Origin: Rhodospirillales bacterium
GTDB taxonomy: Bacteria > Pseudomonadota > Alphaproteobacteria > Dongiales > Dongiaceae
Assembly (NCBI GenBank): GCA_009885795.1
Contig: VFKA01000020.1
Location: 1-64,000 of the forward strand
Length of the DNA: 64,000 bases
Direction of reading: 5' to 3'
Shown here in pieces: positions 18,699 through 46,243 of this stretch. The stretch's first letter is position 1. The number at the start of each line of letters is the position of its first letter. The position numbers and the translations under genes were made by a program. The notes under the pieces were generated by a model. It searched no databases and was not told the DNA's origin. It was given only the letters and a program-made list of their open reading frames with translations.

Positions 18699-20117
18699 TT
18701 AGCAGCGGGGGTCTATCGGCGTCCGGCCGGAAAGGCCAAGGACCGCTTCGATGGCCGCCGCGGCCGAGAGCAGCGCCGCCTCGCCATGCGGCTTGCCTAC
18801 CAGTTGCAGCCCGACCGGAAGGCCGGCGGCGGTGAACCCGGCCGGCAGGGCCACGACCGGGCAGGATGTGAGCGTGATCGCCGAGGTGATACGCAGCCAC
18901 TCGACGTAATTGTCGAACCCCTGACCCTCCACTTCCCGCACCCAGCGGGTCTCGACCGGGAAGGGCGGGACGCAGGCCGCCGGACAGACGAGCAGGTCAT
19001 GGTCGCGGAAGAACGCCGCCATCCGATGGTAGAGGCGGCCGCGCGCGCTTTCGGCGCGGGCGATGGCTTCGAGCCCGAGCGCCAGCCCCTTTTCGATGTT
19101 CCAGATGATGTCCGGTTTCAACATGTGCCGGCGCAGGCGGTAGTGGGGGCCGAGCGAGGCGACGAAACCGGCGGCGCGTAGCGTCTGAAATGCTTCCGGT
19201 GCCTCCGAGAAGTCGAGCACCGTCGTTTCGACCGCGACTCCGGCGCCGGCCAGGCGCTCGACCGCCGCGGCGCAGATCCGGCGCACCGCCGAATCGACCG
19301 GCGTGATTCCGAGGTCCGGGCTATAGGCGACGCGGCGTGGCAATCGTGGGCCGGAAGCGGCCAGCGCGAAGCTCGTGTCCGGCGCCGGCAGCGACATCGG
19401 GTCTTCTTCGTGCCGGCCCGCCATCGCATCCAGCATCAGCGCCACGTCGGCGACATTGCGCGCCATCGGCCCTTCGACCGCGAGCGTGTTGAAAGGCTGC
19501 TCGCTCGGCCCGTTCGCGACCCGGCCGGGACTGGGGCGCAAGCCCACGACCGAGCAGAAACCGGCCGGCGTGCGCAGCGAGCCGCCGAGATCGGAGCCGG
19601 TCGCCAGCCATACCTCGCCCGCGGCCAGCGCCGCCGCCGAGCCGCCCGACGAGCCGGCGGGGGTGAGCGCCGTGTTCCACGGGTTCCTGGTGTCGCCGAG
19701 AACTACGTTGAAGGTATTGGCGCCGGCGCCGAATTCGGGCGTGTTGGATTTGGCCAAGACGATGGCGCCCCGCGCCTCCAACCGTTCGACCATGATGTCG
19801 GAGCGCGCCGGCACATGGTCCTTGAAGATGGGCGAGCCGTAAGTGGTGCGCACGCCGGCCACATCGTTGAGATCCTTCACCGCGATCGGCAGGCCGGCGA
19901 GCCAGCCCCGTCCATCCTCCGGCGCCGGCGCCGCCATGATGCGCCGCGCCGCTTTGCGCGCGCGTTCGGCACAGAGTGTCGGCAGCGCGTTCAAAGCCGG
20001 TTCCACTTCGGCGATGCGCGCCAGCGCCGCCTCGACGAGGTCGAGCGGCGATATCTCGCGCCGTTTCATGCGGACGACGGCCTCCGTGGCGGTCAAGCGG
20101 TGAAGATCATCGATCAT
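18699..20117 (-). CDS. Amidase (amidase-signature family)
   Basis: 472 residues with the Ser-cisSer-Lys triad: Lys81 in PIAVKDLND, Ser156 in [11 protein letters not shown] and nucleophile Ser180 in [13 protein letters not shown]. It hydrolyses a carboxamide to acid and ammonia; substrate unknown. It is not GatA by context, since no gatB or gatC is near. Start 20117 leaves the upstream family B repeat outside the gene. Confidence 0.9.
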
Positions 20118-20129
20118 GACGCCAGCCCC

Positions 20130-20190
20130 CATGCTTCGACAAGTTCGGCATGAGCGCCTCATCCCGAGCCTGTCGAAGGATGAGGTCCCG
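20130..20190. repeat. Family B hairpin repeat, copy 3
   Basis: Reads ATGCTTCGACAAGTTCGGCA...CGAGCCTGTCGAAGGATGAGG, a diverged inverted repeat of the B family. It lies in the divergent gap between amidase and nhaA, so promoters must lie around it. Confidence 0.7.
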
Positions 20191-20247
20191 CTTGGACTCC
20201 TGTATAAGCGTGCACTAGACCGGCGTCGAGGCCGGCGGAGGGATGGC

Positions 20248-21453
20248 GTGGGCGAAGTTGTCTACAAACGAGCGCTCGACGAGATTCGCGAGTTCATGCG
20301 CCTCGAAGTGGCCGGAGGCGTGCTCCTGCTCACGGCCGCGGTCGTTGCCCTCATCGCCGCCAACAGCGCGTTTGCGCCGATCTATGCGCGGTTTCTCGAT
20401 TTGCCGGTGGAATTCCGGGTGGGCGCTTTCGCCATCGCCAAGCCGTTGCTGCTCTGGATCAATGACGGACTGATGGCGGTGTTCTTCCTGCTCGTCGGTC
20501 TCGAGATCAAGCGCGAGTTGCTGGCCGGCGAACTCGCGACCATTCGCCAAGCGATCCTGCCCGGCATTGGGGCGGCCGGCGGCATGCTGGTACCGGCGCT
20601 CATCTATGTGGGATTCAATGCCGGCGATCCAACGGCGTTGAACGGATGGGCAATACCGGCGGCCACCGACATCGCGTTCGCGCTGGGCGTGCTGTCGTTG
20701 CTTGGCCGGCGGGTGCCGGCCGGTCTCAAGGTGTTCCTGCTGGCGCTTGCCATCCTCGACGATCTGGGCGCCATCATCATCATCGCGGTCTTCTATACCA
20801 GCACACTCTCGGTGGGCGCGCTTGCCGCGGCCGCTGTAATCCTGGTCTTGCTACTGACACTCAACCGCCTTGGCGTGACGCGGATCGCGCCTTACGCGCT
20901 TCTCGGCATCGTCCTCTGGGTCTGCGTGCTCAAATCGGGGGTGCATGCGACCTTGGCCGGCGTCGCCATCGCCTTCGCGGTCCCGTTGAAGGGGCGCGGG
21001 ATGGTAACGCAATCGCCGCTCACGCATCTCGAACACATGCTTCACCCCTGGGTGACGTTCCTGATCATGCCGCTGTTCGGCTTTGCCAACGCCGGTGTCT
21101 CCTTGGCAGGCATCGACGCCAAAGGCCTCGGCAATCCGATCATCCTCGGCATCGCGCTCGGCCTCTTTCTCGGCAAGCAAATCGGTGTCTTCGGCTTCGT
21201 CGCGGCCGCCATAGCGCTCGGCCTCGCGCGGCGCCCGGATGGCGTCACCTGGCCCATGCTCTACGGTACGGCAATCCTCGCCGGCATCGGCTTCACCATG
21301 AGCCTGTTCATCGGCACGCTCGCCTGGGAAAGCACCGCGTTCGCGGCCCCCTTGCGCCTGGGCGTGCTGGCGGGTTCGCTCGCCTCGGGCCTTTTCGGCT
21401 ATGCGGTCCTGCGCTTCGCGTTCAGGCGCGCCGAATCACCCTTGAAAGCCTAG
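20248..21453 (+). CDS. nhaA: Na+/H+ antiporter NhaA
   Basis: 401-residue inner-membrane antiporter that expels Na+ or Li+ in exchange for H+. The transport site [15 protein letters not shown] has Asp171-Asp172, and the crossed-helix motif [11 protein letters not shown] has Thr140-Asp141. About 12 TM segments, normal length. The frame is open to 20116, but that stretch is repeat; GTG 20248 gives [17 protein letters not shown], matching the NhaA N-terminus. ATG 20296 is possible but would trim helix 1. Same-strand TerC and channel genes follow. Confidence 0.92.
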
Positions 21454-21568
21454 CGCGACCTCCCAATATCGAAAATCGGGTCCGGGCCCCTCTGGCGATC
21501 GGCGATCGGTCGCGATGTCGGATTCTCTTTCGCGCCTGTTCTTGGGTGGTTCGAAACCGGGAGTTCGA

Positions 21569-22585
21569 ATGGATACGCCGCTCTGGCTTTGGCTCGGGTT
21601 CCTTGCCTTCGTCCTTGCCCTCTTGGCGCTCGATCTGGGCGTCATCCATCGCCGTCAGCGCGAGATCCGCGTCGGCGAGGCGCTGTGGCTCAGCCTCGGT
21701 TATTTTGCCCTTGCAGGGCTCTTCAACGCCGGCGTGTTCCACTTCCGGGGACCGCAGGCGGGCTATGAGTTCCTCACCGGCTACCTGATCGAGAAGAGCC
21801 TCAGCGTCGACAACATCTTCGTGTTCGTGCTGGTCTTCTCCCATCTCATGGTGCCGCCGCTCTATCAGCACCGGGTGCTGTTCTGGGGCATCATCGGCGC
21901 CCTGGTCATGCGCGGCGCGCTCATCCTGCTCGGCGCCACGCTGATCGAGACGTTTCACTGGATCGTGTACTTGTTCGGCGGTTTTCTCATCGTCACCGGC
22001 GTCAAGATGCTGCTGGCCGGCGAAGCGAAGCCGTCGCTGGAGAACAACCGAATACTTGCCTTCGCGCGCCGGCGCCTGCGGGTGACCGAGGAGTTTCACG
22101 GCGAGCGCTTCTTCGTGCGCCGCGCCGGCGTGCTTTGGGCGACACCGCTGTTCCTCGCGCTGTTGCTGATCGAGTTCACCGACCTGGTCTTCGCCGTGGA
22201 TTCTATTCCGGCGATTTTCGCCGTCACACAGGATCCATTCATCGTTTTCACGTCCAACGTCTTTGCCATCCTCGGCCTGCGGGCGCTCTATTTCGCGCTT
22301 GCCGGCATCGTCCATCGCTTCCATTACCTGAAATACGGGCTGTCGCTGGTCCTCGTCGTCATCGGCGCCAAGATGATCGCCAATGGCGTCTTCGGCGAGA
22401 AAGTGGTGCCGGTCGAAGCCGCGCTCGCCGTCACCGCCGTATTGATCCTGGGCTCGATCCTGCTGTCGTTCCTATGGCCGCGGCGCCAACCGGCCGCGGC
22501 GCTTCCCACCGGATGGGTGCCCGGCAGCCCGCCCGAGGAACCGGTACAGGCAAAGGCGCAAATCGAGAGGCGGAGGCAGTCATGA
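21569..22585 (+). CDS. TerC/Alx-family integral membrane protein (probable Mn2+ exporter)
   Basis: 338 residues, about nine TM helices. The duplicated family motif appears as EKSLSVDNIFVFVLVFS and IEFTDLVFAVDSIPAIFAV, with acidic residues in membrane helices that bind the cation. Alx and related TerC proteins export Mn2+, and this subtype is the long Alx form. GGGAG lies before ATG 21569. No yybP-ykoY (Mn) riboswitch pattern was found upstream. The stop overlaps the channel gene by 4 bp (ATGA), implying coupled translation. Confidence 0.85.
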   Translation: MDTPLWLWLGFLAFVLALLALDLGVIHRRQREIRVGEALWLSLGYFALAGLFNAGVFHFRGPQAGYEFLTGYLIEKSLSVDNIFVFVLVFSHLMVPPLYQHRVLFWGIIGALVMRGALILLGATLIETFHWIVYLFGGFLIVTGVKMLLAGEAKPSLENNRILAFARRRLRVTEEFHGERFFVRRAGVLWATPLFLALLLIEFTDLVFAVDSIPAIFAVTQDPFIVFTSNVFAILGLRALYFALAGIVHRFHYLKYGLSLVLVVIGAKMIANGVFGEKVVPVEAALAVTAVLILGSILLSFLWPRRQPAAALPTGWVPGSPPEEPVQAKAQIERRRQS

Positions 22586-23460
22586 AAGACACGGCGACCG
22601 CCGCCGCCATGGCGGAAGCGCCAGCCGGCTGGCGCGGACGCCTCGCCGGTTTCCTCGGAAACACAGGCATGGAGCGAGTGGTGGCGACGCTGATCGTGGT
22701 CAATGCCGTCGTGCTGGGGTTGGAGACCTGGCCGGCGGCGATGAATGCCGCGGGCGGCATTCTGATGATCCTCGATCGTGCGATCCTCGGCATTTTCGTC
22801 ATCGAGCTCGCCGGCCGGATGGTGGCGCATGGCGCGCGCTTCTTCCGCGATCCCTGGAGCCTGTTCGACTTCGTGGTGGTGGGGTTGGCGCTCGTGCCGA
22901 CAACCGGATCCCTCTCGGCGCTTCGGGCGCTGCGCGTATTGCGGGTGCTACGATTGATGACGATCTTTCCGCGCATGCGCCGTGTCGTTCAAGGACTGCT
23001 GACCGCGATTCCCGGCGTCGGCGCGATCGTCGCGGTGCTGGGCATCATCTATTACGTGTCGGCCGTCATCGCCACGAAGCTGTTCGGCGGCGCCTTTCCC
23101 GAGCTGTTCGGCACGTTGGGGGAGAGTCTCTTCTCGCTATTCCAGGTGATGACACTCGAAGGTTGGCCGGAGATCGTGCGCGACGTGATGGCGGTTTACC
23201 CGCATGCGTGGATATTCTTCCTTTGTTACATTCTCGTCGCCACCTTCACCATGCTGAACCTGTTCATCGCCGTCATGGTCAACGCCATGCAGGCGGAGCA
23301 TGAACGCGAGGTGACGCGGTCGCGCCACGGCGACACCGAGGCCGTGTTGGCCGAAATCGCCGCCTTGCGCGCGGAGGTGCGGACCTTGCGCGGCGAAGCG
23401 TGGCGCCACGAGCCGAATTACACCGGCACGCCGCCTTCGGATTTCCGGCGCGCGACGTAG
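22582..23460 (+). CDS. Bacterial voltage-gated cation channel with TLEGWPE filter
   Basis: 292-residue six-TM channel subunit of the NavBac type, expected to form a tetramer. S4 carries Arg115, 118, 121 and 124 at every third position (LRALRVLRVLRLM). The pore filter TLEGWPE is at residues 191-197, where NaChBac-type Na+ channels have TLESW. S6 follows (LVATFTMLNLFIAVMVNAM), then a C-terminal heptad helix (about 240-272, AVLAEIAALRAEVRTL) that should form a coiled coil. Glycine in the fourth filter position recalls a Ca2+-selective prokaryotic channel (CavMr). Translationally coupled to the Alx-like gene. Selectivity is inferred only. Confidence 0.9.
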   Translation: MKDTATAAAMAEAPAGWRGRLAGFLGNTGMERVVATLIVVNAVVLGLETWPAAMNAAGGILMILDRAILGIFVIELAGRMVAHGARFFRDPWSLFDFVVVGLALVPTTGSLSALRALRVLRVLRLMTIFPRMRRVVQGLLTAIPGVGAIVAVLGIIYYVSAVIATKLFGGAFPELFGTLGESLFSLFQVMTLEGWPEIVRDVMAVYPHAWIFFLCYILVATFTMLNLFIAVMVNAMQAEHEREVTRSRHGDTEAVLAEIAALRAEVRTLRGEAWRHEPNYTGTPPSDFRRAT

Positions 23461-24968
23461 TCCTTGAGCGCGTCGTCGATGGCGGGGTCGAGGGCCGGCT
23501 GTTCGTAGTCGGCGAGGAGCTGCTTCCACACGGTGTTGGCCCGCCGCGCGGCATCGGGCGAGCCGGCCTCGCGCCAGCTCTCGAAATTGCGCCAGTCGGA
23601 GATCATCGGCGCGTAGAACGCCGTCTCGTACCGGGCAAGCGTATGCCTGGCGCCGAAGAAATGACCGCCCGGACCCACCTCGGCGACGGCGTCGAGCGCC
23701 ATCGTGTCGTCGTTCACTTCGAGGGGCTTCAGGAATTCGGCCATCATCTGCAGAATCTCGGCATCGACGATCAGCTTCTCATAGGAGGCGACGAGCCCGC
23801 CCTCCATCCAACCGGCGCCGTGCTTCACCAGATTGGCGCCGCCCATGACGGCGCCCCATATCGACATCTCGGATTCGTAAGCGGCTTGCGCATCGACGGC
23901 ATTGGCGGCGCAGGCATTCGACGAGCGGTAGGGAAGGTTGTAGCGCCTTGCAAGCTGACCGCCGGCCATCGCCGCGCGGGTGTATTCGGGCGTGCCGAAG
24001 GCGGGCGCGCCCGATTTCATGTCGACGTTCGAGGTATAGCCGCCATAGAGGACAGGGGCGCCCGGCCGCACCATCTGCAGGAAGGCGATGACGCCGAGCG
24101 CCTCCGCGTTCTGGAGGGCGAGCGCGCCGGCGAGCGTCACCGGCGCCATCGCCCCGGCAAGCGTGAACGGCGTCACCGCCACCGCCTGGCCGGCGCTCGC
24201 CATGGCCGTCAGCCCATCCAGCATGGCGCCATCGACCCGCAACGGCGAGTTGGTGTTGACGACGGTGATGAGCCCGGGGCGAGCCTCGATCTCGGAGCGC
24301 GAAATGCCGCGCGCGATGCAGTTCATTTCGATGCCGTCCTCCACCCTTCCCGCGCCGATGGCCGAGGCCTGCCAGACGCGATCGGTGAGCGTGACGTAGG
24401 CATGATGGCAATCGAGATGTCGGGTGGCCGGGGCCAAGTCGATCGGCTCCACCGGATAGCCGGACGCCAGGTGAATGATGTCGAGGCTCTGCACCAGGCG
24501 GAGGAGATCGCAAAAGTCGGCGAAATTTCCCGGCCGCCGGCCGCGGTCGAGGTCCGAGACGTTGGGCGCGCTCGATACGGCGCAGAAGGCGACGTGGCGC
24601 CCGCCGATGCGTACGTCGCGCGCGGGATTTCGGGCATGGAGCGTGAATTCGGCCGGCGCCTTGGCGACGCTTTCCAACACCAGGCCGCGATCGAAGCGCA
24701 CCCGGCCCGACGACCGGTCGATGTCGGCGCCGGCCTTGGCCAGGATGTCGAGTGCCGCCGGGCTCATGAACTCGAGGCCGGTCGTTTCCAGGATTTGCAA
24801 GGACGCGTCATGGATGCGCTCCAGGCTCTCCGGGTCCAGCACCTCGACCGGGCGATAGGGGTTGACGATAGCGCGCCACGGCGGCTGGCGGACTCCGCCG
24901 GCCTCGCGGCGAGCGCGCCGGCGCGAATTTTCGCGGGGCGAGGGCGGAGCGGAGCCTGGCACGGTCAT
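23418..24968 (-). CDS. MttB-family methyltransferase (non-pyrrolysine type)
   Basis: 516 residues similar throughout to trimethylamine methyltransferase MttB (FCAVSSAPNVSDLD near the N-third, PVLYGGYTSNVDMKSGAP in the middle, HGAGWMEGGLVASYEKL later). The frame has no internal stop, so there is no amber-encoded pyrrolysine. Homologues without Pyl demethylate quaternary amines such as glycine betaine, passing the methyl to a corrinoid protein. No corrinoid partner or activator is in the window, so the substrate is open. ATG 24968 or 24980 are both possible. The 3' end overlaps the channel gene by 43 bp, convergently. Confidence 0.85.
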   Translation of the reverse strand: MTVPGSAPPSPRENSRRRARREAGGVRQPPWRAIVNPYRPVEVLDPESLERIHDASLQILETTGLEFMSPAALDILAKAGADIDRSSGRVRFDRGLVLESVAKAPAEFTLHARNPARDVRIGGRHVAFCAVSSAPNVSDLDRGRRPGNFADFCDLLRLVQSLDIIHLASGYPVEPIDLAPATRHLDCHHAYVTLTDRVWQASAIGAGRVEDGIEMNCIARGISRSEIEARPGLITVVNTNSPLRVDGAMLDGLTAMASAGQAVAVTPFTLAGAMAPVTLAGALALQNAEALGVIAFLQMVRPGAPVLYGGYTSNVDMKSGAPAFGTPEYTRAAMAGGQLARRYNLPYRSSNACAANAVDAQAAYESEMSIWGAVMGGANLVKHGAGWMEGGLVASYEKLIVDAEILQMMAEFLKPLEVNDDTMALDAVAEVGPGGHFFGARHTLARYETAFYAPMISDWRNFESWREAGSPDAARRANTVWKQLLADYEQPALDPAIDDALKDYVARRKSEGGVPV

Positions 24969-25045
24969 GACGGGCAGCATACCCCACCCCGGCCGCGCCG
25001 GCTCTGTCCAATTTCGTATTGCGGTGACATATTTCGTATTTCGGT

Positions 25046-25101
25046 ATTTCGGTGACAGTGCACTTAATTCGAAATCGAATTAAGTGCACTGTCACCGAAA
25101 T
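25046..25101. repeat. Perfect 27-bp inverted repeat, 2-nt spacer
   Basis: Left arm 25046-25072 and right arm 25075-25101 are exact reverse complements separated by AA. The right arm ends AGTGCACTGTCACCGAAAT. The 20-mer AGTGCACTGTCACCGAAATT also occurs twice in the tandem repeat at 51335-51422. It sits 20 bp upstream of an MFS start codon. Shorter fragments (GGTGACA, ATTTCG) precede it at 25021-25045. It resembles ends of transposon-linked repeats, but no transposase is present. Confidence 0.9.
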
Positions 25102-25121
25102 TATGATAACCCGTTCCCGCC

Positions 25122-45613: not shown

Positions 45614-46243
45614 TTGATCTCGGTCGCCGAACTCAGCGCGCTCCTCCAGGTCATCGTCGTGGACCTCGTCCTCGCCGGCGACAATGCCATCGTCGTCGGC
45701 ATGGTGGCGGCGAGCCTGCCGCGCGAGCAGCGCGCGCGCGTCATCGTTCTCGGCATCGCCGCGGCGACGGTCTTGCGCATCGTCTTCGCCGCGGTGACGA
45801 CGCAGCTGCTGCAGGTTCTCGGGCTGTTGCTGGCGGGCGGTGTGCTGCTGCTGTGGGTGTGCTGGAAGCTGTGGCGCGAGTTGCGCGAGCAGCGGCGCAT
45901 GGCCGTCGCGCTCGAGGAGCTCGAACATCCGCAGGCCACGGCCAAGATCGCGAAGCCGCCCAAGACCATGCGCGAGGCGGCGATTCAGATCGTGGTCGCC
46001 GACGTCTCCATGTCGCTCGACAACGTGCTCGCGGTGGCCGGCGTGGCGCGCGAGCACACCTGGGTGCTGATCGTGGGGCTGGTGCTTTCGGTGGCCTTCA
46101 TGGGCGCCGCCGCCACCCTCATCGCCGGGCTGCTCAAGCGATTTCCCTGGATCGCCTATGTCGGACTCGCGATCATTTTCTATGTCGCCTGCGCCATGAT
46201 CTATGAGGGCGTCCTTGAAATCCGCGACGCGGTGGCGGGCTGA
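45614..46243 (+). CDS. TerC family membrane protein, YjbE-like
   Basis: 209 residues, about seven TM helices, short TerC form. Paired acidic motifs VVDLVLAGDNAIVVG and VADVSMSLDNVLAV form the cation site; related YjbE proteins export Mn2+. No ATG fits the N-terminus. TTG 45614 places the start just before ISVAELSALLQVIVVDLVLAG; TTG 45572 is an alternative. Its 3' end overlaps the Nudix gene by 43 bp, convergently. A second TerC-family gene is at 21569. Confidence 0.8.
   Translation: MISVAELSALLQVIVVDLVLAGDNAIVVGMVAASLPREQRARVIVLGIAAATVLRIVFAAVTTQLLQVLGLLLAGGVLLLWVCWKLWRELREQRRMAVALEELEHPQATAKIAKPPKTMREAAIQIVVADVSMSLDNVLAVAGVAREHTWVLIVGLVLSVAFMGAAATLIAGLLKRFPWIAYVGLAIIFYVACAMIYEGVLEIRDAVAG

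Follow-up and report, generated by a model that had tools for sequence, protein, structure and literature searches.

A predicted voltage-gated cation channel with a CavMr-type filter layout encoded beside terC in a Rhodospirillales bacterium

Introduction

Which ions pass through a bacterial voltage-gated channel whose selectivity filter departs from the TLESW motif of Na+ channels? The question is raised by a gene in the first 64,000 nucleotides of contig VFKA01000020.1 of a Rhodospirillales bacterium (assembly GCA_009885795.1; this whole stretch is hereafter called the window), the product of which carries the filter TLEGWPE.

The obvious reference is CavMr of Meiothermus ruber, which has the filter TLEGWVD and which PMC12919392 calls the only prokaryotic Ca2+ channel to have been identified. 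The glycine at position 4 of the filter (Gly4) is its key determinant, the G4S substitution cutting PCa/PNa about 18-fold (PMC7041947), and Gly4 decides Ca2+ selectivity in NavPp as well. CavMr D7M is still highly Ca2+-selective, D7 being dispensable, and V6T has lowered selectivity. In contrast, NavAb S178G has a PCa/PNa below 0.01 and is not Ca2+-selective (PMC12919392). The M181A substitution of NavAb (position 7) gives about a 10-fold Ca2+ preference; Met181 helps to exclude divalents. CavMr/NavAb filter swaps yielded no current. Thus, Gly4 is not sufficient alone. Why it is effective in CavMr and not in NavAb is an open question in the field, for which natural NavAb/NavMs-like bodies with a CavMr filter layout, such as the window's channel and the Azonexus channels near NavMs described below, are direct test objects.

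The channel and its selectivity filter

The channel gene is intact from the ATG at 22582 to the stop at 23460, and its translation comprises one 6TM domain plus a C-terminal helix/coiled coil. The protein scores 146 bits against Pfam Ion_trans, and PDB sequence matches identify NavMs (229 bits) and NavAb (218 bits) as the closest solved structures, with which it shares the fold, S4, S6, and the C-terminal helix. The AF2 model (mean pLDDT 90) places the P1 helix at residues 179–190, the filter at 191–194, and the P2 helix at 195–205, and predicts an unbroken helix 209–276 that forms the C-terminal neck and coiled coil; its best Foldseek matches are CavAb, NavAb, and NavMs (E about 1e-16). In alignment A1, the S4 arginines R115, R118, and R121 are invariant and R124 nearly so; the high-field glutamate of TLE, E193, is likewise invariant. 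The product is therefore almost certainly a voltage-gated cation channel, best explained as a homotetrameric member of the bacterial Nav superfamily. We rejected the idea that the gene is an orphan or degraded, its reading frame being intact and the model of high confidence. No plasmid relatives above 60% identity were found. The second Ion_trans gene of the genome encodes a K+ channel with an SVGYG filter and an apparent cyclic-nucleotide-binding domain.

The filter codons, ACACTCGAAGGTTGGCCGGAG, read TLEGWPE in frame, which confirms the departure from TLESW that the earlier note had pointed out. When the protein is aligned to NaChBac (TLESWASGVMRP, confirmed identical to 6vwx) and to TLESWSMGIVRP, which we take to be the NavAb sequence (the family being confirmed only via PDB matches), the filter region reads TLEGWP-EIVRD. 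The end of the P1 helix, FQVMTLE, is identical to that of NavMs and NavAb, whereas TLEGWPE, one residue shorter, stands in place of their TLESWSM-G. Relative to TLESWxxG, Ser4 has become Gly, position 7 is acidic, and the Gly of xxG is gone. The canonical filter of the Na+-selective BacNav members is thus absent (TLEGWPE-I instead), and the combination of Gly4 with an acidic or polar position 7, as in AnclNav/CavMr, is present (acidic here); the acidic side chains of the filter number eight per tetramer, the same count as given for CavMr.

The earlier note was right to compare Gly4 with CavMr. Its "added Glu", however, is a misreading, as nothing is added: P-E replaces xxG with one residue lost, and the Glu lands at position 7, which in CavMr is Asp. 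Nor need this Glu contribute, because CavMr D7M keeps its high Ca2+ selectivity. The two channels share Gly4, the acidic position 7, the filter length, and a single-domain voltage-gated architecture, but the window's channel has Pro6 instead of Val and Glu7 instead of Asp, and its short P2-S6 segment (IVRDVMAVYPHAW) is without the cysteine-bearing L6 loop extension reported for CavMr. A sequencing slip or a lone S-to-G substitution was rejected, since the residues after W differ from those of TLESWSMGIVRP and one is missing; these changes, together with a layout common to many relatives, argue against a one-base Ser/Gly slip.

A degenerate DNA scan of GTDB genomes for FQxxTLEGW[V/A/P/L][D/E] returned at least 113 stretches from many phyla; the pattern occurs once in the window and not at all in shuffled sequence. 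The matches listed include Alpha-, Beta-, and Gammaproteobacteria, Verrucomicrobia, Planctomycetota, Acidobacteria, Armatimonadota, Bacteroidota, Ignavibacteria, Patescibacteria, cyanobacteria, and Nitrososphaeria, and none among them comes from Deinococcota. The TLEGW-type signature is common and is not peculiar to the window's genome. Archaeal channels (Nitrososphaeria; Nitrosocosmicus and relatives; L164, L148, L170, L193, and L194) carry TLEGWVE. Two further observations concern the wider family: BacNav-type channel genes lie in adjoining pairs at five single loci (L078, L079, L082, L275, and L277), and three divergent alphaproteobacterial channels (L018, L019, and L024) have the filters VYDDYG, SGDDWY, and LLGHTWS, far from TLESW.

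Phylogenetic position and filter switching

Trees were built with the filter columns removed, for row sets of 100 and 48, and AnclNav-type proxies stand in for CavMr, NavPp, and the other named AnclNavs. FastTree placements of long branches were given no weight. One side of the trees holds NaChBac and the AnclNav-type channels (support for the split 99/92 with 100 rows and 98/97 with 48); the AnclNav-type rows mostly carry TLEGWV[D/E], and some have a cysteine-bearing loop after P2. On the best trees the other side holds NavAb, NavMs, the TLESWSMG channels, and the window's channel, which is about 45–53% identical to Ser4 relatives versus 32–38% to AnclNav-side rows. Its nearest neighbor is L209 (a Betaproteobacteria MAG, TLEGWAD); the support, 96/63 and 88/51, leaves the precise position of the window's channel uncertain. 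With proxy rows in place of CavMr, the AU test does not reject moving the channel to the AnclNav side (p=0.23–0.32). Clustering inside Na+-selective clades, which the earlier note had named as evidence against its reading, is thus half borne out, the body being NavAb/NavMs-like on the best trees.

Gly4 and TLESW rows are intermingled among the NavAb-like channels, NavMs grouping, for instance, with the TLEGWPDV channel L221 (99/98). The AU test rejects uniting all Gly4 rows in a single clade (p=0.0036) and likewise all TLESWSMG rows (48-row set, p=0.014), and the Gly4 state requires at least 8 to 16 changes on the tree, depending on the row set. With one origin rejected for either filter, the filter evidently switches repeatedly, and a Gly4 filter alone therefore shows no kinship to CavMr. 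Taken together, the best trees and the PDB matches point to a NavAb/NavMs-like body with a CavMr-type filter layout, which is best explained as a mosaic state, gained or retained repeatedly on NavAb-like bodies. L221 itself comes from an Azonexus sp. MAG in which a single short contig encodes two BacNav relatives (334–1116 on the minus strand, plus a second copy); both carry TLEGWPD and group with NavMs, i.e., they are Gly4 filters on a NavMs body.

The nhaA–terC–channel locus

The channel gene is preceded on the same strand by terC and nhaA (Table 1).

Table 1. Features of the locus (positions in the window)
Feature	Position	Strand	Evidence
NhaA Na+/H+ antiporter gene	20116..21453	+	TIGR00773, 480 bits
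terC RNA motif RF03067, putative cis-regulatory leader of terC	21474..21530	+	56.7 bits vs gathering 39.9
Gene of TerC/Alx-family metal homeostasis membrane protein	about 21569..22585	+	TIGR03718, 403 bits (cut-off 246)
GGAGG, Shine-Dalgarno-like, 5 nt before channel ATG, within terC end	22572..22576	+	sequence
Voltage-gated cation channel, BacNav-type, 292 aa	22582..23460	+	translation, Ion_trans, PDB matches, AF2, Foldseek
S4 voltage sensor, four regularly spaced Arg (ALRALRVLRVLRLM)	22906..22981 (approximate bounds)	+	translation, alignment
Selectivity filter TLEGWPE: Gly4, Glu7, one residue shorter than TLESWSM-G	23152..23172	+	sequence, translation, alignment

The true start of nhaA is probably internal, near codon 50, and its end lies 20 bp before the terC RNA, which is the sole RF03067 copy in the genome and has an unremarkable generic fold energy (z −0.11). 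The terC reading frame opens at 21515, but the position of the RNA motif suggests 21569 as the start. A search for a yybP-ykoY Mn2+ riboswitch found none; the leader is the terC RNA. The terC gene is the only TIGR03718 copy above cut-off in the genome; a weak second TerC/Alx-like match (45653–45892, 27 bits) is under it. The terC stop and the channel start overlap as ATGA, and a simple scan of the plus strand found no sigma-70-like promoter or terminator between nhaA, terC, and the channel. The terC and channel genes are probably translated together under the terC RNA leader and presumably co-transcribed. Neither terC nor its leader is unusual within the TerC/Alx and MeeF/MeeY group (TIGR03718 and relatives) with RF03067. 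TerC/Alx relatives handle Mn2+, in efflux and in the metalation of exported proteins; in E. coli, the alx leader responds to Mn2+ and alkaline pH, and Alx is alkaline-induced.

Linkage of TerC to Gly4 channels

The arrangement recurs elsewhere. In genome samples drawn without regard to the filter (37 Gly4 and 163 Ser4 loci), TerC lies directly upstream on the same strand of 4 Gly4 channels and of no Ser4 channel (Fisher p=0.001, without tree correction), 33 of the 37 Gly4 channels having no TerC next door. Among the matches listed by the filter-based scan, the same neighbor is found at 12 of 79 non-redundant Gly4 loci. The linked taxa are Rhodospirillales, Asticcacaulis, Rickettsiales-like and other alphaproteobacterial MAGs, Rhodobacteraceae, Hydrogenedentota (L127), and L209, the nearest tree neighbor of the window's channel. 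The tree requires at least five changes of linkage state, and each linked row is Gly4; in an independent-pairs test all informative pairs agree, with too few of them for power (p=0.25–1). The linked TLEGWAD clade of Rhodobacteraceae is nested beside a TLESW channel, so here the filter change and the TerC linkage go together. Strand and order are the same throughout, with gaps of about −22 to +120 bp in several distant lineages, and the terC RNA is found at TerC in the window and at six Rhodobacterales TerC-channel loci. Analogous linkage to NhaA as a general feature of Gly4 channels was rejected: across the loci compared, NhaA is directly upstream of two TLESW channels only (L011 and L053) and of no Gly4 channel. 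A limited literature search found neither an earlier mention of a TerC partnership of Gly4 channels nor a report of a voltage-gated channel as an operon partner of TerC. In our opinion, the recurrent TerC/Alx linkage is independent, although indirect, support for a divalent role of Gly4 channels.

Functional implications

As in the rest of the family, depolarization would move the S4 arginines and open the S6 gate. The filter retains the four-Glu high-field ring, with Gly4 and Glu7, and the P2 helix begins one residue short and without the Gly of TLESWxxG. The outer entrance would be wider and more electronegative, each tetramer having eight acidic side chains rather than four, and Ca2+, possibly also Mn2+, would pass clearly better than through a TLESW channel. 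The channel would then admit divalents, while TerC would move Mn2+ outward or onto exported proteins. Since Gly4 goes here with an acidic residue in place of Met at position 7 and with a shortened start of P2, raised divalent permeability is a better guess than strict Ca2+ selectivity: permeability well above that of NavAb seems somewhat probable, and selectivity as strict as that of CavMr rather unlikely. The probable joint translation with TerC/Alx under the terC RNA, together with the adjoining nhaA, makes a role in metal/cation homeostasis, at alkaline pH or on depolarization, the most likely one. The full reading, a voltage-gated cation channel of raised divalent permeability tied to TerC and alkaline-pH metal homeostasis, stands in our view at about even chances. 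Against it, Pro6 has no tested precedent, CavMr V6T already reduces selectivity, and the nearby nhaA indicates Na+ too. The suggestion of the earlier note, a native Ca2+ or non-selective channel, is partly supported: Gly4, the acidic position 7, and the filter length are as in CavMr, but NavAb S178G, on a similar body, does not select Ca2+.

The strongest competing account, a tentative one, is an ordinary or weakly selective Na+ channel in which Gly4 and Glu7 merely loosen selectivity and which returns Na+ as substrate to NhaA under alkaline or high-Na+ conditions, like NavBp/NsvBa in alkaliphilic Bacillus. Bacillus Nav channels are activated by high pH and feed Na+ to antiporters, and NsvBa of Bacillus alcalophilus is a naturally non-selective member (PMC4225499); like the window's channel, it is a natural deviation from TLESW in an alkaline-pH cation cycle, although its TLDSWGSG filter retains Ser4 and its lineage is Bacillus. 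The gene upstream of terC is nhaA; one of the two TLESW channels preceded by NhaA, L053, is near the window's channel in one tree; and the alkaline induction of E. coli Alx and the failure of S178G to make NavAb a Ca2+ channel fit as well. However, the recurrent neighbor of Gly4 channels is TerC and not NhaA, terC separates nhaA from the channel in the window itself, and position 7 is acidic, the divalent-excluding Met181 of NavAb being absent. Divalent homeostasis and alkaline Na+ cycling both fit the operon, and the recurrent TerC link favors the former.

That link could be accidental and uninformative about the channel, given that it concerns only about 10% of Gly4 channels and that the loci are phylogenetically non-independent; the constant strand and order, the short gaps in distant lineages, the ATGA overlap, and the absence of linkage from all 163 Ser4 channels make this improbable. 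Less probable still is a native CavMr orthologue with strict Ca2+ selectivity. The filter similarities and the unrejected AnclNav-side placement speak for it, but the best trees place the channel on the NavAb side of a well-supported split, its identity to Ser4 relatives is the higher one, the cysteine-bearing L6 extension is missing, and the Gly4 rows do not form a single clade.

These results matter mainly for two things: NavAb/NavMs-type test cases that occur in nature, and the TerC partnership, which, if true, would provide a physiological partner for Gly4 channels and a role in metal or pH homeostasis that can be tested. A broader proposal, that Gly4 BacNav relatives are voltage-gated Mn2+/Ca2+ channels forming a coupled entry/exit unit with TerC/Alx under the terC RNA, their filter having been gained repeatedly on NavAb-type bodies along with the TerC partnership, is speculative and, on present evidence, unlikely.

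Downstream, the channel gene shares 43 bp of its 3' end (23418–23460) with a convergent MttB-family gene (23418–24980, minus strand), which scores 329 bits against TIGR02369, under the cut-off of 525, has no in-frame amber codon, and is probably a non-pyrrolysine MttB homologue. A near-perfect palindrome at 25032–25108 (both strands), between this gene and the next plus-strand gene, yields spurious Rfam matches to animal miRNA and may be a hairpin within the promoter region that the divergent genes share.
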